IMG/VR virus record: IMGVR_UViG_3300033571_028151
Coordinates: 1 to 64,000 of that record
From: a virus
Length of the DNA stretch: 64,000 nucleotides
Strand: one strand, 5' to 3'
Of the stretch, positions 1-48,836 are shown piece by piece. The notes under the pieces are model-generated. The model was not told the DNA's origin, searched no databases, and was given only the letters and a program-made list of their open reading frames with translations. Each line of letters begins with the position of its first letter. The stretch's first letter is position 1. The translations under genes were made by a program, and so were the position numbers.

Positions 1-1404
1 ACGCACTACCGGTTTGATCTTGTGCCGCGACCCGCCGGCACCAACACCGTCGTGACCGACGACGACGAGCAGCAGCGGCACGTCATCGAAGACGCCGACG
101 CGGAAATGCAAGGCTGGCTCCCGGCAAATCACCCGACTTTCCGTCGCGACCCCGACGACGCGAGCACGTCGTATGCGCCCGCCGGCGCAATTTTTGGTTA
201 CAACATCAAAAAGCACAACGCGTTAAATCGCGTGTGGCCGCCGATCCCAATTCAGTCGGTGTCCATGATTTGGGACAAAGGTCAAGAACTTGTCGGCGCG
301 ACTGAGATTCCGCTTGGTAAAGCCGGCCTTGCGATTTGTGACGTCAACGGCATCTGGTGGATGAGCGATTGCTACGGCGACGTCCCGTGGCCCGCTGATT
401 ACGACCCCGACACCAGTTTCCCGAACAACGAGGGTGACGAATGCCCACGCGGCGAAGTCATGCGTGTCGTCGTCATATACCTGCGCATGCTCCTCGGCAA
501 CGATCGCTCTGTAGTTACGAGCCTCATGCCCGATACCGACGAGGTTGGCGACGAATTGATTACCAGCCCTGTGGCGATTACAAACTGCGACGATCTGCCG
601 GCCAGCACGGGCGATCTCAAGTTGAATCTTGATTTACAGATTCGGCCGCAAGAAGCCGTGGGCGGACAGGTAATCAAAAACGTAGTTAACCGCCACCAAC
701 TGACCCGCGGCTGGATCGCCGAAGGTCTTGTAACAACAACGCCGGACTTTATCGTCATTACCGGCACACGCCCGCCAGCAAGCATGCGCAACTTGACAGC
801 AGGTGAAAAAACTGCGCTCGGCATCACTACGGCGGCTAACGTGCCTGTGCATCAGGGCGTTGTCCGCGTCGACTACACAGACAACCTCGTTGAGCGCGAA
901 ATTTCTCCGCAAATCATTCGGTTGAGCGATACGGTTGAGCGACTTTACATGGACATCCCGTATCTGGGCTTCCCAGCCGGACAGTCGTCATTGCTGCGCG
1001 TCAGGTTAAACGTACCTGAAGCCAACCTAGACCAAAGCCTGAAAATGAAGATTCGCGTGCGACTCTTCGGCCGCAGCGGAACACCATCATCCGCTGCATT
1101 ACTCCCTGAACTTTTTATGTCGTATCGCCGGCTACCGCGCCCGCGAGTATTAAACACTGTTACAGGCCAATATGTGCCGACTGCGTTAGCGCTGCCGACC
1201 GTAGATACCGACGTAGACTTTTCTGACTCTTCGCGCTCCCTGCTTATTGACACCGTTGTCGAGTGCAACAGCGACGAGTTCGACGTCGAGGCGGGCGACA
1301 CTGTGTTGGTCACTATCGAACGCCGGTCAGATATTTCTGACCAGTACGATAATGACGTAGGAGTACTCCGCATCGCCGGAATAGTGCGTAGCGCCCCAAC
1401 ATGA
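1..1404 (+). CDS. Hypothetical virion-locus protein, 5' partial
   Basis: The frame is open to the left edge of the window, with seven codons before the first possible start (GTG at 22) and no visible ribosome site. The gene therefore probably begins upstream and the fragment has about 467 residues. I recognise no family. The protein is rich in predicted beta strands, Pro and Asp, has no signal peptide or membrane segment, and lies 10 bp before a run of fibre-like genes read the same way. A virion-surface or tail role is inferred from context only. Confidence 0.75.
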   Translation, partial: THYRFDLVPRPAGTNTVVTDDDEQQRHVIEDADAEMQGWLPANHPTFRRDPDDASTSYAPAGAIFGYNIKKHNALNRVWPPIPIQSVSMIWDKGQELVGATEIPLGKAGLAICDVNGIWWMSDCYGDVPWPADYDPDTSFPNNEGDECPRGEVMRVVVIYLRMLLGNDRSVVTSLMPDTDEVGDELITSPVAITNCDDLPASTGDLKLNLDLQIRPQEAVGGQVIKNVVNRHQLTRGWIAEGLVTTTPDFIVITGTRPPASMRNLTAGEKTALGITTAANVPVHQGVVRVDYTDNLVEREISPQIIRLSDTVERLYMDIPYLGFPAGQSSLLRVRLNVPEANLDQSLKMKIRVRLFGRSGTPSSAALLPELFMSYRRLPRPRVLNTVTGQYVPTALALPTVDTDVDFSDSSRSLLIDTVVECNSDEFDVEAGDTVLVTIERRSDISDQYDNDVGVLRIAGIVRSAPT

Positions 1405-1414
1405 TAGGTGAGCC

Positions 1415-2359
1415 ATGCCGATTGGAAATTGGAATTTACAATGGCTCAACCACAACTCGCAGCGCTCTTATCCGCTGACCGATTGGGCTACCAAAACAGA
1501 CACACGCGGCGTCATTCGGCTGCCCGACGGCTTTATCGTTGCGATGTATCTGCCTATCAGCGCAACCAACGAAATTGACGCTGGTCGGTTCTTTTTAAAA
1601 AACCTGCTCATAAGCCCGACAGGTTTTAATATCATTGTTGGGTACGCCCCGCCGACGGGCGACGCGGTCGATGTAGCCGGCGCAAATATCGCGCGTGCGT
1701 CATTTGCGCCAAACAGGTCGTATGCGCTCGGCGGTATTGACGCATTTGACGACACTATCGGGCATGTTGTTATCGGCAATCTTGACGAGATCAACATTCT
1801 GCCGCCGGGCTTTTACACATTTACACGAGATGGCGGCGCGCTAGAGCCTGACGTCATTCGGCCGGCTATTCGCGGCGTATCTAGATTGCGCGTACAGAAC
1901 AACGCGCAAATCACAGACTTCATCTACGGCGACGTAACGCTTGTCGCCGGCAGCAATATTCGCCTCAGCGTAGCCTACACCGAAGAAGACACCAAGATCA
2001 TTTTCGACGCGATTGACGGAGCCAACTTAAACGCCGATTGCGTATGCCCAGTGCCCGAAGACGGCCTGTGCATTCGCTGCATCAACGGCGTGTGCAGCGA
2101 TAACGGTACGTTCACTATTATCACGAACACGTGTGTTGACGTCACCCCGGGCACCAACAGCCTTACGCTATCAGATACGTGCGCGCAACCATGCTGCGGC
2201 TGCTCAGAACTTGACGAGTTAAACCTGCAACTCGAATTGTTCACAAGCGGCGTTACGACATTACAAAACTTTGTCAGCCGTCTTGGCGCTGAAGTTTCAC
2301 AAATGTCTATGGTTGTACTTGGCAGTAAGTTAAACGATAGCGGCTGCGGGTTAGGCTGA
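1415..2359 (+). CDS. Fibre-like structural protein, paralogue 1 of 5
   Basis: A 314-residue protein of unknown exact function. It is the first of five adjacent genes whose products share an N-terminal motif (here QRSYPLTD, residues 16-23) followed by a beta-rich domain. Near residue 225 an INGVCSDNG stretch resembles the ING..PD..GN motif common in phage tail fibres. The C-terminal quarter is Cys-rich, with clustered cysteines around residues 205-265. The start follows a GGTGAGCC ribosome site, and 8 bp separate it from the next gene. It is probably a tail-fibre or virion-decoration subunit; the role is inferred from motifs and neighbours. Confidence 0.8.
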   Translation: MPIGNWNLQWLNHNSQRSYPLTDWATKTDTRGVIRLPDGFIVAMYLPISATNEIDAGRFFLKNLLISPTGFNIIVGYAPPTGDAVDVAGANIARASFAPNRSYALGGIDAFDDTIGHVVIGNLDEINILPPGFYTFTRDGGALEPDVIRPAIRGVSRLRVQNNAQITDFIYGDVTLVAGSNIRLSVAYTEEDTKIIFDAIDGANLNADCVCPVPEDGLCIRCINGVCSDNGTFTIITNTCVDVTPGTNSLTLSDTCAQPCCGCSELDELNLQLELFTSGVTTLQNFVSRLGAEVSQMSMVVLGSKLNDSGCGLG

Positions 2360-2367
2360 GGTGCGCC

Positions 2368-3975
2368 ATGAGCGGGCAATCTACTGATCCAGACGCCGGC
2401 GGACTCGGCATCGGCGTAGTCCAGCCGCAAAGCGGTTTAGATTACCCATTTGTATCGCCGGGTGCAGGCATACAAACACTCGCTATCGCCGACGTCGAAA
2501 ATCTATTTGCAGATTTCTACCTGTCATACGATGACGTCGGCTATTACCGTTCGCAGCCTGTGGCGCAAAACCCGTTGCGCATTCACTGGCTGTACGGCTT
2601 CGGCACCGGCGACGCGTGGTCTGACGGTGCTGCACCGACAGAAGCCGTCGCGATCCCGACACCGACGCACGCCGCCGACCTACTCGTTGTCGACAGCGAA
2701 GATCGCGTCATCTTCGACTCTACAACTGCCGACTACTTCACGGCAACACCGTGGGGCGCCTATTACACAATTTACGAGTGGCGCAAAACGACAAAGCCAA
2801 ACGAAGCAGTGTGCCGCGCCGTCAAGTACGACAAAGTACACAACAACATCGAACTGCCGCCGCGCCCAGTACAGTATTGCCCGCGGCACGCAACGCTCGA
2901 CGAGCGGACGATAGAGAAGATTCCAAAACGCATACTTGCTATGCGCGTACAAAACGGAGATTGCATAACGCCGTGGTTTAAAGAAAAAGTCAGTTTTGTA
3001 AACGGCCACAACACCGAAATCACTATGGCTGACACGGCCACAGTCAATTTAAGAAAAAACACTGACGTGTCTTTTGTCGTAAGTCCGGGCAGCGGCGCGG
3101 GGCAATACGGTTTGTGCGCTACCGGTATTTGCGAAGAAGACGATCCGACGAACGTATGTCCGCCCGGCGAAGATCAAGTAATTCCTATATGCCCAGAAAT
3201 TACGGGCGAAGAAATTAAAACGATTAACGGCATCAAACCGGACAACGCTGGCAACATCTTCCTCACAGCGAACGACTGTCTTTGGGTACGAAAGCCTGCG
3301 GCATACACAGGAAGTACGCCGCACAATTACGAAAACGTGAACGGCGCACCTGTGCGATCTGTCATGGCTGTCGGCGCCGATTGCGCCCCGTGCTGCGCGT
3401 GCGCCGACTATCTCGACACGGCAAAGTACATGTCGCAACTAGGTTTTTATTATCGCGACATCGGCGACCGCGTCACCGAGATTAAGACGCTTCACGAATC
3501 CAACATCGACCGCTGGGAACAAAGTCGCGACTGCCGCAATCGTCGCCCGTTTGAGTTGTTGCTTGTGCCGCAGCCGTGCCCCTGCATGGACGTCGTGTTG
3601 TTCTACTGCAACCACTGCGACGACTGCGCAGAAAATGTCGTACTTACTGTAAATTTTACTTCAACGCCTGCGGTCGGAGGCGTCCGGCTCGACACAAAAT
3701 ATACAAAGATGGTGGCCGACAACCGCAGCGGCGGCGCGGACGTCAGCGGCGGCTGGCCCGTTTTCTCGGTACGATTTCCTACTGTCGGCGCCGGCGCATC
3801 TGTGTATGCGCAATTTAGACTTTGCTTTTGTCCGCAATATCCGTACGCCATTCGCGGCGTATTAACGGGTGTAGACAGGTATGGCCCAATCAACGCTGGT
3901 TGCAAGGCCACCGACCCGCCAGCCGTTATTGAAGCCAGCCAAATACTCGACTGCGAAATACCGGTAACTATTTGA
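2368..3975 (+). CDS. Fibre-like structural protein, paralogue 2 of 5
   Basis: A 535-residue member of the same set. The N-terminal motif is LDYPFVS (residues 24-30), and around residue 290 there is a clear INGIKPDNAGNIFLT fibre motif. The C-terminal 200 residues carry several Cys pairs (for example CPCMD and CNHCDDC) and look beta-rich. No enzyme motif is visible. It lies 8 bp after paralogue 1 and 13 bp before paralogue 3, presumably in one transcript. It is likely a structural appendage protein whose cysteines may bind metal or form disulfides outside the cell. Confidence 0.8.
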   Translation: MSGQSTDPDAGGLGIGVVQPQSGLDYPFVSPGAGIQTLAIADVENLFADFYLSYDDVGYYRSQPVAQNPLRIHWLYGFGTGDAWSDGAAPTEAVAIPTPTHAADLLVVDSEDRVIFDSTTADYFTATPWGAYYTIYEWRKTTKPNEAVCRAVKYDKVHNNIELPPRPVQYCPRHATLDERTIEKIPKRILAMRVQNGDCITPWFKEKVSFVNGHNTEITMADTATVNLRKNTDVSFVVSPGSGAGQYGLCATGICEEDDPTNVCPPGEDQVIPICPEITGEEIKTINGIKPDNAGNIFLTANDCLWVRKPAAYTGSTPHNYENVNGAPVRSVMAVGADCAPCCACADYLDTAKYMSQLGFYYRDIGDRVTEIKTLHESNIDRWEQSRDCRNRRPFELLLVPQPCPCMDVVLFYCNHCDDCAENVVLTVNFTSTPAVGGVRLDTKYTKMVADNRSGGADVSGGWPVFSVRFPTVGAGASVYAQFRLCFCPQYPYAIRGVLTGVDRYGPINAGCKATDPPAVIEASQILDCEIPVTI

Positions 3976-3988
3976 CGAGGATTAAAGT

Positions 3989-5605
3989 ATGCCGGTTCGC
4001 AATCAAAATTGGTACAACCTGCAAGCGTCGCGGCGATATCCGCTTGACGATAAAAGCACCGGCGTTGACGACGCTGGCGCTTTTATTCGTGAAGATATCA
4101 TTGTGGATTGCCACATCCGGTTTCCAGAAACGCTTGGGCAGTATCTGTACGTGCAAGGTATTACAGTCTCGCCCAATTTGGTGACCGTTGTTTTCGGTGC
4201 CGCGGACTCGCTGACCGACACAAACAACAACACGACAATCGCGGCGGTGTCGATATCAAAGCCCGTCGCAACAAACGTCAACTACGCGATTGAAGCGCTG
4301 CACGAAGGTGTCAGCGGTTGGGTTGTTTTCGGCGCGGGTGTCAGCACTGACTTTTCCGGCCGCTACTCAACGCCGGAACAAACATACATTGGTTTGCGCA
4401 ACGCGAGACCATACCGGCCGCTACCTGTCCCGACGATTGGCAAAATTGATTTGCGAACCTCGTTATCTGGTTTAGTGCGCATGACAGCGGCCCCGCCCGT
4501 CACCGCCACGTATATCGACGAAACGCTGCTGCCGAGTGACCAGCGGCTGCCAAAGTATGACCCGCAAACGCAGACAACAAATTACGAGCCTATCCGGGCT
4601 ATTTTGTTCGCGACAGAGGCGCCAAGCATTGTCTTCAATCCTCTGACGTATTTTCTTGGACCATGCGGGCAGCGGCCCGAAAGCGGCACGTGCCCCAAAA
4701 CGCCGATTGAGCGCATCAACGGCGTGCAGCCCGACTGTGTAAACGGCAACATAAATATCACCGTTGGCTCCGGGTTATCAGTCAGGACGTTTGCTGAATG
4801 CGGCGGTGCGGATATCACAACTCCGCGCAGTCTAGAAGAGTCATGTGCTCGCCCGCCAAAGACAGACAGGCCGACCGATAAGTGCCCGTGCGACCCGAAT
4901 TACACAAAGACGGACTATTATTGCTGGCCGCCGTTCGACCCGCGCGACGTAGTTTGCGAAGAAAACAGCGAACCGTGCCCGGCGTTGCCGATTTGCGTGT
5001 CATTCAGCCCGTGTCATGAGCCGTTGTTTGAAGTTGTGTCTGGGTCTTTTAACGTGGCGTCTTATTCTGCGCCGCCCGTTTGTTGCCCACCCGCGACCGG
5101 CTTTACAGTGCACGACACTTATTTAGCGACGAGCCGCGGAACTTTGAATATCGCGCTTTATCGCGGTTGCGCGAGTGACTGGGCGTATAACCACACAATA
5201 TCAGTTGAGGTTCATCCCGCAGGCGGCGGATATCGGCAAAACGGCGGTGTCGTCGTGAACTATATGCGCGTTACTGAAAACGGGCGCTGCAAGACCAAAT
5301 ACATTGCGGCCATAATCGACGTAGCCAGCAATGCCTTGCAAATCTACAGGTATAACGGTACATCGTTAATTAAAGAAAGCCAATTAGATGTGACCGTCGA
5401 TCAAACGCACTGGTACAGGATATCTGTAACTGCCGCGGGACTCGGCACGACGACGGCAATAACTGCGTCGCTATACGACATCACAGACGAGCAGCAAGTG
5501 GCGACGTTAGTGACAAATGTGGCGGACTACGAAGCGGTCGACGGTCGCGCCGGACTATTTACGAGTAACAGCATAGCCTACTTTAACAAGTTTCAAGTGT
5601 CATGA
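3989..5605 (+). CDS. Fibre-like structural protein, paralogue 3 of 5
   Basis: A 538-residue protein. The shared N-terminal motif is SRRYPLDD (residues 14-21). Around residue 248 the sequence INGVQPDCVNGNINITV matches the fibre motif, and a Cys/Pro-rich linker follows. The C-terminal 180 residues look like a beta-sandwich (LamG/concanavalin-like in feel, not proven), which would suit glycan binding. The start follows a GAGGATTAA ribosome site. The gene overlaps the next by 4 bp (ATGA), indicating translational coupling within the fibre operon. Confidence 0.8.
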   Translation: MPVRNQNWYNLQASRRYPLDDKSTGVDDAGAFIREDIIVDCHIRFPETLGQYLYVQGITVSPNLVTVVFGAADSLTDTNNNTTIAAVSISKPVATNVNYAIEALHEGVSGWVVFGAGVSTDFSGRYSTPEQTYIGLRNARPYRPLPVPTIGKIDLRTSLSGLVRMTAAPPVTATYIDETLLPSDQRLPKYDPQTQTTNYEPIRAILFATEAPSIVFNPLTYFLGPCGQRPESGTCPKTPIERINGVQPDCVNGNINITVGSGLSVRTFAECGGADITTPRSLEESCARPPKTDRPTDKCPCDPNYTKTDYYCWPPFDPRDVVCEENSEPCPALPICVSFSPCHEPLFEVVSGSFNVASYSAPPVCCPPATGFTVHDTYLATSRGTLNIALYRGCASDWAYNHTISVEVHPAGGGYRQNGGVVVNYMRVTENGRCKTKYIAAIIDVASNALQIYRYNGTSLIKESQLDVTVDQTHWYRISVTAAGLGTTTAITASLYDITDEQQVATLVTNVADYEAVDGRAGLFTSNSIAYFNKFQVS

Positions 5606-6390
5606 GCGGCGCAAGAATACTATTTCCGGATTTTCGTGACGAGCAGAGCGATTCGCGCTACCCGTTTGCCGATAGCGCGACACTACTGGCAGACGACGGC
5701 ACGACAGCGATCGCCCGCGACACGTTTCTTGACGCGTCGCTATACGCCATCGGGGCTGGTCGCAGGGCTTACGTATCTAAAGTCACGATCGCCCCACAAA
5801 AAATAACATTACAGATAGGCGACGAGGGCGCTGTAAATCGCGCAACGACGTCGTTCGTGCCTAACCCCATTCAGGCGCCGGAAAACGGCGTGCTGACATT
5901 GACCGATAGTCGCGGCCGGCCTGCGGGGGCGCTTGTAGCAAACGCCGACAAACTTGTGCTCTTCGCCGGCTGGAGTCTGGGCGAATACACGTTTCAGCCA
6001 GCCGCGACAGAATTTGTTTCGTCGGTGTGTATTCCTGCACAAGAACCGGGCGTGAGAGGCGTTCTAACTGCGGAAGAAAATTTGACCACCGGCGATCTGT
6101 GGCTTATCGGCGACGCGGGCGTGGTCATCACGCACGTCGGCGAACAAAACGGTTATCAAATCATTCGCGTCGATATTGTCGGTGTGCCGCTCTTCAATCG
6201 TTTCGTGTGCATTCCGTTTGAAAGGTTTACACCGAAAAATTTTGTCAAAACAATTAATAACTGCCCGCCCGACGAGTACGGCAATTTTACGCTGACCGCG
6301 ACAGGCTTTGAAGTAGAAGACACTGTGTTGCGTGTATCAAACAAAGACGGCATAATTTTTATCGACGCGTTGGGCCGAAAGGTGGTATGA
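5602..6390 (+). CDS. Fibre-like structural protein, paralogue 4 of 5
   Basis: A 262-residue protein whose ATG overlaps the stop of paralogue 3. The N-terminal motif is DSRYPFAD (residues 17-24). The ING motif is present in the variant form INNCPPDEYGNFTLTATG near the C-terminus. It is shorter than its neighbours because it stops soon after this motif, and it lacks the long Cys-rich C-terminal domains. It is probably an adaptor or a shorter fibre subunit of the same appendage; this role is inferred. Confidence 0.8.
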   Translation: MSGARILFPDFRDEQSDSRYPFADSATLLADDGTTAIARDTFLDASLYAIGAGRRAYVSKVTIAPQKITLQIGDEGAVNRATTSFVPNPIQAPENGVLTLTDSRGRPAGALVANADKLVLFAGWSLGEYTFQPAATEFVSSVCIPAQEPGVRGVLTAEENLTTGDLWLIGDAGVVITHVGEQNGYQIIRVDIVGVPLFNRFVCIPFERFTPKNFVKTINNCPPDEYGNFTLTATGFEVEDTVLRVSNKDGIIFIDALGRKVV

Positions 6391-6391
6391 C

Positions 6392-7312
6392 ATGCCTCGT
6401 CCGGGTTTTTACAACGATAACGAGTATCGCGCATACCCATTTATTTTTAAAGTGGGGCAGGCCGATTTACTGCCTAATTCCGCTGTTGTTGATTGCGGGA
6501 TTATCATGGGCCTCGATAGCGAGTTCGACGCGTCGACCCACAGCGTGTGGCTCACAGAAGTCCGTCGCGTAGGTGACACGTTTGAGTTTGAACTGCAAAC
6601 AGACGCGCCGGGCGCGGCTGAATACCCGCTCGTTTTTACCCGAGACGTCGACGCGGAAGAGTGGCAATCTGAGCACGTCGAATCAGAGCCGTACGTTAAA
6701 GACGTTAACAGTTGCGCAATCGAGCCGGCATGGTCGGGGTTTCTCGTGACCGGCCCGCTTACAGACTTACTTGCTGCAATGCCAGCGCCGGCTACCGCAC
6801 CGCTTACGCAAAATTTTGTGCTAGAGCCGGGGCGCATCCAAAGTCTCGTAAAAAGTTATTTGCGCGCCATCACCGTCGGCAACATGGCGCGACCGGAAGC
6901 GCGGTCAGCGTGCGACCCTGCAAACACCGTCACCCGTCCCGTCATCATTAATTCGCGCTGCGTTACTGGCAACATTCGTTTCAAAGAAGGCTATAACGCG
7001 ATCATTCAACAACGCGACGCGCTAAACGAAATAAACATTAGTGCTGGGCAAAATTTTGGCGAGCGTCCCGACGGCAAATTGTGCGCCGCGGGGAGCGAGG
7101 TGCCGTTTTACGAAGACGAACAACCGCCAGAAGGCAGCCAGTTCTTTAGCGGCGGCCCTGCGTGCGACGAACTGGTGTCGTCTATAAACGGCGTACAAGG
7201 ACCTGACATTACTATCGCCGGCGGTACAGGTGTCGACATAACTATCGACCCCGATACCCCGAACACGTTAAAGATATCTTTATCCAACGTAAATATTGCT
7301 GGAAACTGCTAA
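6392..7312 (+). CDS. Fibre-like structural protein, paralogue 5 of 5
   Basis: A 306-residue protein starting 1 bp after paralogue 4. The N-terminal motif is YRAYPFIF (residues 12-19). The C-terminus carries INGVQGPDITIAGGTG followed by a short beta stretch, as in many fibre proteins. There is no signal peptide or catalytic motif. Shared ends and adjacency suggest that the five genes arose by tandem duplication and diverged strongly. Confidence 0.8.
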   Translation: MPRPGFYNDNEYRAYPFIFKVGQADLLPNSAVVDCGIIMGLDSEFDASTHSVWLTEVRRVGDTFEFELQTDAPGAAEYPLVFTRDVDAEEWQSEHVESEPYVKDVNSCAIEPAWSGFLVTGPLTDLLAAMPAPATAPLTQNFVLEPGRIQSLVKSYLRAITVGNMARPEARSACDPANTVTRPVIINSRCVTGNIRFKEGYNAIIQQRDALNEINISAGQNFGERPDGKLCAAGSEVPFYEDEQPPEGSQFFSGGPACDELVSSINGVQGPDITIAGGTGVDITIDPDTPNTLKISLSNVNIAGNC

Positions 7313-7324
7313 CGCGAGCCGCAC

Positions 7325-10300
7325 ATGACCGACTTCTTTTTTTCGAACAACAAGTGTGGCATTGGCGATCAAGTCGAGAAGGTCGACTTTGATTTTGTCG
7401 AGTCCTGTGAAATCCGGCCCACCCCGCCGCCGATATTCGATTGCCAATTACCTATCATTCCGCGTGAGCCAGAAGTTCCGTGCCCAGAATTTGTCACGTC
7501 GTCCAAAATAGCAGTTGCGTATAACAACGAAAGCAAAAGTTGCCCAATCAAACCGCCGTCTCGGGTTGACTTCAAAATTCTACGCACGGTAGACAAGTGC
7601 TCGACAGACAATACGTGCCGGTTCGACGCTGAAATAGATATCAACGTGCTTGTGCCGCCGCCGCCCTGCCCGGAGATGCGCGTTGGAGAACTGAAACTCA
7701 CAACAGGGTTTTCCGACCAACCCTGTATCGCTGACGGGCAAAATCGATTTCAAATTACGTCGTCAAAACGCGCCGGTATTGATTGTAACGACCCGGGGAC
7801 ATGCGAGTTCACATTCGATTTAGAACTCGTCGTGCCGATTCCGCGGCCGCCGTGCCCTAGGATCGAAATCAATACGTTCTCTGTCAATGCAAACTACAAC
7901 GACGAATGCCCTCCGCCACCGAGCCGCTTCGAGATTCGAAAAAACCACCGGCCGCCAAGCGAATGCGAAGATACGGGCGAGTGCAACTTTGACATCGACC
8001 TTGAAATTTATATTCCGATTCCTCGCCCGCCATGCCCTGAAATCAACATTGTTAAATTTGAAGTCAATAGTGCCTACGAAAATGCTTTTTTCGCTACATC
8101 CTGCAACAGACAAAATCGTTTTGTTGTCACGAGGAAATACACACAGCAGCCCTGTGATGACCCAAAGAAGCGCGATAAGTGCGACTTCGACATTGAGTTA
8201 GAAATCTTCATCCCGATCCCGCAGCCGCCTTGTCCGGAGTTAAATGTCAAGGTTTTTGACGTAAAAACTTACTACGAAGACAAAGAAGATAAGTGTGCAA
8301 ATACCGGCAATCGGTTTGAGATCACGAAGCGAAAAATACCGTCAACAGATTGCCGTACGCCCGATCGCTGCGAATTTGATTTTGAAATCGAAATCAACGT
8401 CCCAATACCGCGCCCGCCGTGCCCCAGCATCAACGTCGGCAAATTCGAAGTCAAAACACAATACGCTGACTGCGTCACGTCGAACAGCACGTTTGAAATC
8501 ATTCCGCGCGTGACCAAAGGCGAAGACTGCACGGAATCAGACCAGTGCGATTTTGATATCAATCTCGAAATTATTGTGCCGATCCCTCGGCCGCCATGTC
8601 CGGAAATCAACGTCACGAAGTTCGAGGTCAAAACGACGTATGACACAAAGAAGTGTCCGTCGAGCGGCGGCAGTACGTTTACGGTTACTCGCCGGCCGCC
8701 GCGGCCGAAAGACTGCAACTCTACAACTCCGGAAAATTGCACGTTTGATTTTGAGTTGACGATCGAGGTTCCTCTGCCGCCGCCTCCGCCTTGCCCGGAA
8801 CTCAACGTCAATTCGTTCAACGTCAACTACATTGAAAACATCACGCCAGAAAATGTTGACCAGTTATTTAATTGCAATAGGTTCACGATCACTACGCGCG
8901 AGACACCCGGCGATTGCGGCGAGACAAACGGCTGCGCGTTCGATATTGACTTGAACCTGTGCGTCCCAGTCCCGCCCTGTCCTAATTTCGAAATTACAAC
9001 GTTTGTCGTCAACTCTAAATATGCAGATTGCCTCGTCAGCACCGAAAACAAGTTCACGATCACAAAACGCAGCGAAGACGAGTGCAACTTTGACATTGAT
9101 TTAGAAATCAACGTCCCGATTCCGCGCCCTGCGTGCCCGGTATTCGGCACAAATCTTGATGTGCGGCCGTTCTTTTTTGGTGGTGGGTGCGTCCCGGGTT
9201 TTCCTTTGCCTGCGTGCGCAGCCGGCGGTGGCGGCGGTGGCGGCGCCGTCGGCGGCTTGTCGTCGTTCACAGTCGAGACGGTCACGATCGGCGGCTGCTG
9301 CGGGCAAGGTGACGCACAAGAAGTGTGCGGCTTCTTGTTCGACCTCAAAATCGCGATCCCAATTCCCAAGTTGGTTCAAGAGGTCAAGTTTGAGCCACAA
9401 AAAATAAAGTTCGATCTCCTCTGGTGCGACACGAAACTGGGTATTCAACCGGATACTTTGCGCCTCGATTTCAAGCCTCAACCTGACGCGTGGGCCAACT
9501 GCTGCGACCGCGGGGCGCAAGCGCTGTTCAAGCCAGAACTCGAAATTAAGTACAACATGAGCCGCTGGCCGTGCGAGTATGTCGACATCTGGCCACGCGA
9601 AATGAATTTCCCGCTGGAATGGGTTGATCGAAACGGCGTTGTTAGCCCCGCACCGCCGGACACATGGCTCAAACTCAAAATTGAGCCAAAGCCGCCGCTC
9701 GGGCCGTGTATGCCGTGCCGCTGGGAGATCATTCCCGAACTCCGCATTCCCAAACCGTGCGACTACAAATTTACGTACTCAACCGCGGACTCGGTCGTAA
9801 ATCCGTACATCTACACGTGCGCCCGTGAGTATGAGGCGGCTCCCGACGATTACTTCGAAATATACATCGAAGCGATCCCAGACAAGCCGTGCGAATTCAA
9901 AATATGGACATACAATAAGACAAAAGTTTACAAACCGTGCGATAAAATCCGCTTTGAAGTTGATTACTCGCGTTGCACGTTTGTCCCGTTTTACGCAAGA
10001 AGCATTGTACAAATACAAAACGAGTCTAAACTCGAATTCAATATCGAACAGGACCCGGACGATTGTTGCCTATTTAAAATTTGGTACTACTACAACTTCG
10101 GCGTGCTGCGGCCGATTTGCGGCGGCGATGTTTACGTCAACAACGGCGACCTCGGTACAGGTAAACTAAAATGTGAGGGTTCCGATAGCGAGGGGTATAC
10201 GTATCGCATCGATATCGATCTCAAGACCGCGACGTGCGACAGCGCCGGTAGCGGCGCAAGCGGTGGCAGCGGCGGTAGCGGCGGGAGCGGCGGTGGTGGC

Positions 10301-10780
10301 GGCGGCGGGTGCAACGGCGCGACCGGTGTAACTGGCCCAACCGGCGTTGACGGTCCGACCGGTACAACTGGGGTGACAGGGGCAACTGGACCCGAAGGGG
10401 CTACAGGCCCTACTGGCGTAACGGGCGCGACGGGCGCGACGGGACCAACCGGCATTACCGGCCCGACCGGTATTACAGGCCCGACGGGCGCCTCCGGGCC
10501 AACAGGACCAACAGGGCCAGCGGGACCAACGGGACCAGAAGGCCCGACCGGGCCGTCAGGCCCAACAGGCGCAACAGGCTTAGTCGGCCCCACTGGTGCA
10601 ACAGGCTTACAAGGCTTTTCTGGTCCCGTCGGCATGACCGGCGCTAGCGGCGCCACGGGAGTACAAGGCGCCACAGGACCAAAACCGACAACAGCGATTA
10701 TGACCGTCGTAACTGACGTGCAGTTAATAAACAATCAACTGTACGTCACCTACGACACTGTTAGGGTAATTGTGGATTAA
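7325..10780 (+). CDS. Giant Cys/Pro-repeat protein with collagen-like tail
   Basis: The product has 1151 residues. Residues about 95-680 are about ten imperfect repeats of 50-80 residues. Each begins C-x-F-(D/E)-(F/I) and runs into a [12 protein letters not shown]-type core. A Gly-rich loop interrupts the ninth unit. A Cys- and aromatic-rich region follows, then a Gly/Ser linker (residues about 975-995) and about 40 Gly-X-Y triplets ending near residue 1120. A short beta-rich end may be a trimerisation tip. Collagen-like triplets are known in phage fibres and form trimers. I know no named family for the Cys/Pro module. It follows the five fibre paralogues by 12 bp, so a long trimeric virion fibre is the natural reading. 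Confidence 0.85.
7616..9370 (+). repeat. Tandem protein-coding repeat array (Cys/Pro module)
   Basis: Repeat units begin at the TGC of a C-x-F codon set near 7616, 7802, 7982, 8179, 8368, 8546, 8738, 8933, 9082 and 9326. Spacing is mostly 178-197 bp. The sequences are diverged at DNA level but keep the C-x-F-D and PIPRPPCP codons, so the array is old and under protein selection rather than a recent slippage product. Confidence 0.75.
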
Positions 10781-10826: not shown

Positions 10827-11777
10827 ATGGCTGAAGAAAACAACCCACAAAACGACCCGTTGTCGCCGGACTATAAACCGCAGCCGGGCGAAGAAATAGT
10901 TATTTTAAACCAGCAAGTCCCGGCTGATGATGCCGCGCCGTTTGTGCGCGTAGAGCGTTCCGTCTTGATGCGCCTAGGCGGCGGCTGTGCCGGTAATACG
11001 CCAAGCGCCGGGCCTCCGGGTCCTCAAGGCGCGCAAGGCCAACGAGGTCAAACAGGGCCACGCGGCCCGGCTGGCCCAGCGGGGCAGCGAGGTCAAACGG
11101 GCCTTCGTGGCATGACTGGTGCCAGCGGGGCTACCGGGCCAAAAGGCCCAACAGGCATGACTGGACCCACAGGCATGACTGGACCCACAGGCGTGACAGG
11201 CCCAACAGGCATTACAGGCCCAACAGGTCCAAAAGGTCCGACAGGTCCTCGCGGCGCTACTGGCGCAACAGGTCCGACAGGTGCAACCGGCGCGACAGGG
11301 CCGACCGGAGCAACTGGCGCGACAGGGCCAACAGGCGCAACGGGGGCAACAGGGCCGACAGGCCCGAGCGGTCCAAAAGGCCCGACAGGCGCGACAGGTG
11401 TTACAGGTCCTCGTGGTCCCACTGGCCCGCGAGGTCCGACGGGAGTAACCGGCCCCACGGGCGCAACAGGACCCACTGGCCCGGCCGGCCCGGCTGGACC
11501 AACTGGCCCGACCGGGGCCACAGGCCCTACTGGCCCACGAGGCACGACAGGCCCCACTGGCGCAACAGGCATTTGCGGCCCGCCGGGCGAATTTGGCGCT
11601 ACGGGCGTTGCAGGCCCAGTTGGCGCGACAGGCTCTACCGGCCCGGCCGGCGCAACAGGCGTGCCGGGGCCGGCCGGACCGTCGGCTATGACGCCGGCGT
11701 TTACGAGTGCTTTAATTGCAGAAATCCAGACAAATGTTAATCTTAGAGCGGCAATACTCGACGTTCTAACAGGATAA
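10827..11777 (+). CDS. Collagen-like virion protein
   Basis: A 316-residue protein with an acidic N-terminal 60 residues. About 74 Gly-X-Y triplets (residues 62-285) are dominated by GPT, GAT and GPK/GPR units, and a 30-residue alpha-helical end may seed or cap the trimer. Thr-rich triplets replace hydroxyproline-type collagen, as known for phage and bacterial collagen-like proteins. The GC-rich repeats also open long antisense reading frames that are not genes. It lies directly after the giant repeat protein, which ends in the same triplets, so the two may belong to one fibre or to separate surface fibrils. Confidence 0.85.
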
Positions 11778-16572: not shown

Positions 16573-16650
16573 TGGTGGTGGAGGCTGGATTTGAACCAGC
16601 GTTCTTTGGCTTATGAGGCCAACGAGATGACCGGGCTTCTCCACTCCACG
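16573..16650 (-). tRNA. Initiator-like tRNA-Met (CAT), CCA encoded
   Basis: A full cloverleaf. The acceptor stem has six pairs plus an unpaired C1 x C72. The D stem is GAGA/TCTC, the anticodon stem TTGGC/GCCAA with loop CTCATAA (anticodon CAT), the T arm GCTGG-TTCAAAT-CCAGC, and CCA is encoded. The unpaired 1:72 end and the A11-T24 pair are hallmarks of bacterial initiator tRNA. Side by side with E. coli tRNA-fMet most loop bases match. One deviation is the anticodon-stem pair 31:39, which is C-G, so the usual three G-C pairs become GGC/GCC. It is cotranscribed with the minus-strand genes 16655-18248. Confidence 0.9.
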
Positions 16651-21947: not shown

Positions 21948-21955
21948 ACACATTA

Positions 21956-22028
21956 GCCGGTGTAACTCAGTTGGTAGAGTAGCAGTTTTGTAAACTGCCT
22001 GTCGTCGGTTCGACTCCGACCACCGGCT
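21956..22028 (+). tRNA. tRNA-Thr (TGT)
   Basis: The cloverleaf has acceptor GCCGGTG/CACCGGC, anticodon stem GCAGT/ACTGC and loop TTTGTAA giving anticodon TGT, and a T arm with TTCGACT loop. CCA is not encoded, unlike the tRNA at 16573. It reads ACA codons, which are frequent in the surrounding phage genes. Confidence 0.93.
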
Positions 22029-22049
22029 TTGCCCTAATGGAACCGCAAC

Positions 22050-48765: not shown

Positions 48766-48836
48766 TGCCCGATGGTGTAACGGTAGCACAAGGGATTTTG
48801 GTTCCCTTTGTCTAGGTTCGAATCCTAGTCGGGCAT
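48766..48836 (+). tRNA. tRNA-Gln (TTG)
   Basis: Acceptor TGCCCGA/TCGGGCA with the weak U1-A72 pair typical of tRNA-Gln, anticodon stem AGGGA/TCCCT, loop TTTTGGT with anticodon TTG, and T arm CTAGG-TTCGAAT-CCTAG. CCA is not encoded. Reads CAA codons. Confidence 0.92.

Follow-up and report, generated by a model that had tools for sequence, protein, structure and literature searches.

The window analyzed here, the first 64 kb of the 86.7-kb IMG/VR virus record IMGVR_UViG_3300033571_028151 (G000), contains an array of five consecutive open reading frames (ORFs), g1 to g5. Family profiles indicate that the five genes are true paralogues over a core of approximately 250 amino acids (aa), beyond the N-terminus, and they probably encode baseplate-attached appendage proteins that arose by tandem duplication, with the cores at fixed sites of the baseplate rim and some members carrying host-facing modules. 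All five ORFs are on the plus strand and were found exactly where a preliminary description of this DNA had placed them: g1 (1415–2359, 314 aa), g2 (2368–3975, 535 aa), g3 (3989–5605, 538 aa), g4 (5602–6390, 262 aa), and g5 (6392–7312, 306 aa).

The proteins of the window alone display marginal links (best BLASTP E 8.7e-5, hhalign 0.0012) and no link to g5. Relatives were therefore collected, as the window sequences were too thin to decide the question: 28 loci were gathered via g1, 19 via g3, and 43 via the g4 profile. The g1 profile gave 110 candidates, with 79 distinct loci listed, reaching down to 30% identity and including contigs of up to 226 kb. With 25 rows per family, hhalign connected g1 to g2 (2e-15), g4 (3e-13), g3 (9e-7), and g5 (3e-5), and the unrelated neighbors g0 and g7 gave E-values of 0.1 or worse. 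With 60–69 rows per family, the links of g1 strengthened to 6e-21 (g2), 2e-20 (g3), 1e-20 (g4), and 2e-17 (g5), and the remaining pairs were connected as well (g3-g4 2e-16, g4-g5 1.3e-9, g2-g5 1.4e-8, g3-g5 7e-7, g2-g3 1e-5, and g2-g4 1e-5). Profiles of the N-termini alone link g1-g3 (1e-17), g3-g4 (3e-16), g1-g4 (8e-11), g3-g5 (3e-10), g4-g5 (6e-8), and g1-g5 (4e-7), compared with a best value of 0.021 among 20 comparisons in a reversed-profile null. The preliminary description had named a pairwise profile comparison of the N-termini as the test that could refute it; g1, g3, g4, and g5 match each other in this comparison (1e-17 to 4e-7) and g2 does not, being connected to the family via its second half with nothing significant before residue ~128. 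The family profiles thus bear out the proposed duplication, which has better support than could be known at the time, and contradict the statement that the rest of the proteins differs, as the cores are homologous across all five. A bridging sequence was identified in the most distant locus, L150, where g3 begins FLNDNEYRSYPVDDRAT and resembles g5 of other loci; the fifth gene of this locus has its best match in the g1 profile. A search for a sixth paralogue that covered the window and seven pieces of the sister contig G001 gave no clear candidate and two weak g4 matches (E 0.006 and 0.02).

A YP(L/F) motif near the N-terminus of all five proteins had been claimed and is present within residues 14–28: SYPL in g1 (residues 18–21, positions 1466–1477), DYPF in g2 (25–28, 2440–2451), RYPL in g3 (16–19, 4034–4045), RYPF in g4 (19–22, 5656–5667), and AYPF in g5 (14–17, 6431–6442). 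YP[LF] at residues 10–31 was found in g1 to g5 and in no other of the 179 non-overlapping ORFs (≥120 aa) examined in the window and the same pieces of G001, where window and pieces share a few kb, and the chance of obtaining the motif by shuffling is 0.3–0.7% per protein. The P of the motif is conserved in all 313 rows that have a residue at this position (68 + 58 + 66 + 63 + 58), with a gap in 13 out of 326 rows. The second signature of the preliminary description, ING..PD..GN, holds in part. ING is present in g1 (from position 2081), g2 (from 3223), g3 (from 4715), and g5 (from 7184), and g4 of the window has INN (from 6253, INNCPPDEYGN), with G instead in 34 out of 61 g4 rows. The complete string is exact in g2 only (INGIKPDNAGN); g3 carries one residue extra (INGVQPDCVNGN), g1 (INGVCSDNGTF) is without PD, and g5 (INGVQGPDITI) is without GN. 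A further feature after the ING segment, xCCxC, was noted only in g1 (PCCGC, 2189–2203) and g2 (PCCAC, 3388–3402), where it is present in 68 out of 68 and 67 out of 68 rows, respectively, and might link g1 and g2 through a bound metal or a disulphide.

A total of 82 loci were examined, of which 15 were removed as duplicates, near-duplicates, or cut-off loci, leaving 67 non-redundant viral contigs. The genes g1 to g5 are all present, in order and after a baseplate wedge gene of the gp6/J type, in 59 of these loci; in seven of the remaining eight, the locus ends ahead of the missing genes, and in L150 the fifth gene was assigned to g1. The lengths of g1 (about 303–322 aa, apart from early-start ORFs) and g4 (249–317 aa) are nearly constant, and those of g2 (438–1929 aa), g3 (294–1228 aa), and g5 (293–1371 aa) vary strongly. 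A g1 of 940 aa in L115 is an early-start ORF over g0 and, like the fifth gene of L150, was kept in the tables as a special case. The additional sequence in g3 is C-terminal to the core, with YP at residues 17–19 in nine out of ten long forms (the tenth is an ORF with an early start inside g2). For g2, the additional sequence comes before the core in seven out of nine long forms (e.g., YP at residue 1381 of 1929 and 529 of 1021) and is internal in two; because 195–1355 aa lie ahead of YP in these seven forms, the segment cannot serve as a docking tag at their terminus. The additional sequence of g5 is mostly internal, and the L136 form adds ~950 residues after the core. A Pfam scan of 18 extended proteins returned a match at E ≤0.01 in seven, two of them only below the curated cut-off; the families above the cut-off were Laminin_G_3, FGE-sulfatase, Lactonase propeller (+SGL), E1_FCCH (1/2), and Golvesin_C. 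The extended tips are probably glycan-binding.

In the window, an added module is found at the end of g3 (residues 334–538, positions 4988–5602). An AlphaFold2 model based on 25 sequences has mostly high confidence in this region and predicts a jelly roll of the ConA-like lectin type with CBM66 as its nearest relative: the Bacillus subtilis CBM66 matches with Z 19.4 and a root mean square deviation of 2.3 over 157 residues (Foldseek E 3e-7, probability 1.00). The model also resembles many legume lectins, the Foldseek list includes 5ly8 and 4qnl, and the fold is found in the phage tail proteins gp20 of mycobacteriophage Douge (Z 16.3), the CBM2 of the J-1 evolved Dit, and G7C gp63.1. As Pfam finds nothing in the sequence of the tip (0 families at E ≤10 for residues 325–538), it is the predicted fold that suggests carbohydrate binding. 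The tip is wholly absent from 2 out of 25 aligned g3 proteins (L028 and L029, 294 aa), and its median identity across 25 near relatives (23 in one comparison) is 38–39%, compared with 52–62% for the core (62% and then 52% for the g3 core segments against 38% for the tip). A shared N-terminal dock with divergent C-terminal receptor-binding ends, as originally envisaged, is right for g3, wrong for g2, and inapplicable to g1 and g4, which have no variable tip; the N-termini of g1, g3, g4, and g5 are indeed related, but what the five have in common extends over the entire core, with the ING region included.

The g1 model contains a mostly confident beta-sandwich at residues ~25–150, and the predicted strand order agrees between the N-terminal sandwiches of g1 and g3. 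Structural comparison of g1 residues 28–129, made with the common fold of the T4 gp9 to gp12 family in view (a helix plus a three-stranded sheet, XD1-type domain), gave C2-like best rows with Z 5.3, under the noise of ~7–8, and gp9 and gp10 were outside the listed rows. The C2-like matches were rejected as evidence for a C2 domain, the score being below the level that common arrangements reach, and a BFVD search with the g1 model gave no match at E ≤0.001. The median pairwise identity of g1 (65%) is as high as that of the wedge gene (58%), a level more in keeping with a structural role than with receptor reading.

The baseplate context is supported by the wedge gene upstream of the array. The upstream series begins with a sigma-like ORF and two small ORFs and continues with the wedge gene (phrog_6 match, 9e-13), a gene for a 622-aa protein, a gene for a 211-aa protein, and g0, such that two genes separate the wedge from g0. 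An ORF matching a tail sheath (phrog_2839, 2e-8) is located far upstream, and collagen-like fiber genes follow downstream of the array. Two phages were inspected, Salmonella phage Arash and Vibrio phage D69, and both show the same synteny of sigma, wedge, and 622-aa genes. In the myovirus Arash, the homologues of the latter two (gp13 and gp14) are reported in virions by mass spectrometry (PMC10585845). The phage of the window is like Arash and D69 in this gene order and in its RNA polymerase beta, and unlike them in the array: no g1 or g4 match was found anywhere in the two genomes and no match of g0 to g5 in 32-kb pieces of them. A tblastn search of 50,697 phage records with g1 to g5 gave nothing at E ≤1.

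Taken together, these observations suggest that in a contractile-tailed phage of about 200 kb, one gene, probably for a virion protein, was tandemly duplicated into five paralogues, which would be fiber-type appendage proteins attached to the baseplate. Each retains a core in which the YP(L/F) segment leads into a small predicted beta-sandwich and then into an ING-type fiber segment, and the five cores would sit at five different fixed sites on the baseplate rim. The nearly constant g1 and g4 may be plain structural or connector parts, and g2, g3, and g5 may carry the host-facing modules, which in this genome would be the putative lectin domain at the end of g3. Five-paralogue baseplate appendage cassette would be the best name for such an array.

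Several results weigh against this reading. The cores match no named family in Pfam, PHROGs, or the PDB sequences, so that the assignment as baseplate appendages rests on gene position and fiber-like motifs. The N-terminus of g2 compared with those of the others gives E 0.026–0.37, inside the reversed null, and compared with a merged profile of the g1, g3, g4, and g5 N-termini it gives 0.017 (reversed 0.35), in register at YP and not significant; homology of this N-terminus is not claimed as proven. The g1 model has a mean predicted local distance difference test score of 61.6, and its remainder (including the ING segment and a C-terminal helix at residues 264–294) has low confidence, which would fit a fiber folded without its partners. 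Among the 18 extended proteins, 11 are without a Pfam match above the curated cut-off, mostly with none at all. Finally, tip identity follows the backbone among the 25 near relatives (r 0.83–0.97; 0.83–0.96 for the g3 tip), as does that of the other parts, indicating that the tips were inherited vertically. Tip swapping was not seen among these relatives and tip replacement is visible only at longer evolutionary distances, in which the array tips differ from classic host-range tips.

Three alternatives were weighed against baseplate-attached paralogues with separate sites. That only the ING motif and a short YP peptide are common, by convergence or module spread, to otherwise unrelated fibers is very improbable and was already disfavored. 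The absence of a significant match for g2 before residue ~128 would agree with it, and ING-like motifs are common in phage fibers, but g1-g3, g1-g4, and g1-g5 are collinear over 227–240 columns with E 2e-17 or better and the N-terminal sandwiches of g1 and g3 agree in predicted strand order. It is conceivable, although rather unlikely, that the cores do not make five separate homo-oligomeric appendages but assemble from different, related subunits into a single obligate hetero-oligomer (a pseudo-symmetric ring, arm, or spike). In 59 out of 67 loci the complete set is kept in one order with no member replaced or shuffled, the pairwise identities of the g1 to g5 parts correlate at 0.80–0.97 among the 25 near relatives, and the xCCxC of g1 and g2 could mark a paired contact or a shared metal or disulphide site. 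Vertical descent alone would, however, also give a fixed order and co-variation, g0 and the 211-aa neighbor correlate nearly as well, and an ING-type segment is typical of homotrimeric fibers. The elaboration of this hetero-oligomer into an undescribed baseplate platform of five position-specific subunits, held together in part by a g1/g2 xCCxC knot, with insertion points for different glycan-binding modules at the C-terminus of g3, the N-terminus of g2, and the loops of g5, and serving as a modular host grip of uncultured ~200-kb freshwater phages, is doubtful.

A branched receptor-binding complex similar to that of the Ackermannviridae, in which a single paralogue is attached to the baseplate and carries the other four, is likewise unlikely. 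The precedent is phage CBA120, whose tailspike proteins (TSPs) TSP1–4 are described as several linked proteins that have domains in common, differ in their tips, and form a branched complex (PMC8825819, PMC11414711), and the array resembles it as a set of several linked genes with a shared core and differing modules. Against it, none of the solved TSP or gp10 chains was matched in sequence, an anchor combined with multiple distinct docking domains is not seen in any member, g1 and g4 lack a receptor-binding end, and the tips are not exchanged among near relatives. Five paralogous appendage proteins at separate sites of the baseplate remain the preferred explanation.

The gene before the array, g0 (1–1404, plus strand), is cut by the window start and is complete (656 aa) in L003:7020-8990; it is located immediately 5′ of g1 in nearly all relatives, and no kinship to g1 to g5 was found. 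L003 belongs to G001, a contig of 198 kb on which all five genes are identical to those of the window. Several kb of extra sequence separate g1 and g2 in L117, L132, L147, and L126 (including a collagen-type ORF in L132), the only place where the array was seen split by several kb. Downstream, a neighbor outside the family (7325–10780, plus strand, 1151 aa) contains nine PIP-PPCP-type units with signatures at residues 110, 170, 230, 296, 359, 418, 482, 547, and 597, spaced ~50–66 residues apart and followed by collagen-like repeats, a repeat architecture that is unusual in itself. It is followed by a collagen-like fiber protein (10827–11777, plus strand, 316 aa). Three tRNA genes (Met, Thr, and Gln) are located in the window at 16573–16650, 21955–22029, and 48766–48836.

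A g3 relative that carries an FGE-sulfatase domain was found at L107:11479-15165. The FGE-sulfatase fold is used by retroelement-diversified tail tips; tips diversified by a diversity-generating retroelement, as suggested by this domain, were rejected because RVT_1 (PF00078) was present in 0 out of 13 records, some of them fragments, and no reverse transcriptase was found in the 75-kb record of L107. The sigma-factor-like ORF (L003:1035-1841, phrog_351, 1.7e-9) is part of the tail operon, shortly before the wedge gene, and has the same place in D69 and in Arash, where it is gp10 and has been found in virions (PMC10585845). G001 also encodes RNA polymerase beta-like proteins of the multi-subunit type (L052:917-5347 and L051:18001-19941), the first of which is 32% identical to its counterpart in Arash over 98% of its length; identities of 31–32% over 96–98% of the query were found in four records (Salmonella phage Arash and Vibrio phages D69, D148, and D181). 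The phage probably carries transcription machinery of its own. None of 11 records had a Terminase_6N match. A close relative of the array, L151 (RGNC01000002.1), is in a contig binned as the Synechococcaceae metagenome-assembled genome WB8_1B_136, which hints weakly at cyanobacteria as host or habitat or may reflect mis-binning; judged from the contig set, our guess is a freshwater habitat. A limited search of open-licence papers found no description of the array or the phage group.

The analysis offers a likely role for five otherwise hypothetical proteins, and the array resembles an adaptable toolkit for host-cell attachment in which some copies carry different, predicted sugar-binding tips. 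The g3 tip shares its predicted fold with the CBM66/ConA-like modules of J-1, Douge, and G7C but is only 12–15% identical to them in the rows quoted and is fused to an unrelated, new core. Compared with the TSPs of the Ackermannviridae, the array is alike in combining conserved assembly domains with divergent receptor-binding parts. It differs in that the receptor ends of TSPs are C-terminal and exchanged between phages, whereas the array modules are placed at the C-terminus, at the N-terminus, or internally depending on the paralogue and are absent from two members, and in that XD domains are reported only for TSP2 and TSP4, whereas the core is present in all five array proteins. In a search for XD2/XD3 or AD domains by sequence, no TSP4-N chain was among the PDB profile matches of g1 to g5, none of g1 to g5 has a PHROG match below 0.03, and by sequence the array proteins are outside the TSP family.

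The closest working analogy is provided by gp9 to gp12 of phage T4, peripheral baseplate parts whose genes adjoin after the gp6 wedge gene and which are described as descending from one ancestor with subdomains gained (PMC3004832); gp10, gp11, and gp12 share a common fold (PMC3004832). The array is similar in its neighboring genes after a wedge gene, in shared ancestry, and in the gain of subdomains, and its position downstream of a gp6-like wedge gene is conserved in relatives. The PDB contains gp9 to gp12 (PMC3004832), and the array profiles A1–A5 gave 0–5 matches each against all PDB sequences at E ≤1, none of them a phage baseplate chain; the array is comparable to gp9 to gp12 by function and, judged by its profiles, outside that family. 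The kinship of gp10 to gp12 was recognized from structure, whereas that of the array is visible in sequence profiles and its cores share the YP segment. In known paralogous baseplate appendages, kinship is usually buried, as in T4 gp10 to gp12, or confined to docking domains, as in tailspikes; in the array, a common core is still readable, in fixed order and with differing attachment points for modules, across dozens of contigs, which makes the array well suited to studying how a single structural gene turns into a set of specialized host-contact parts.

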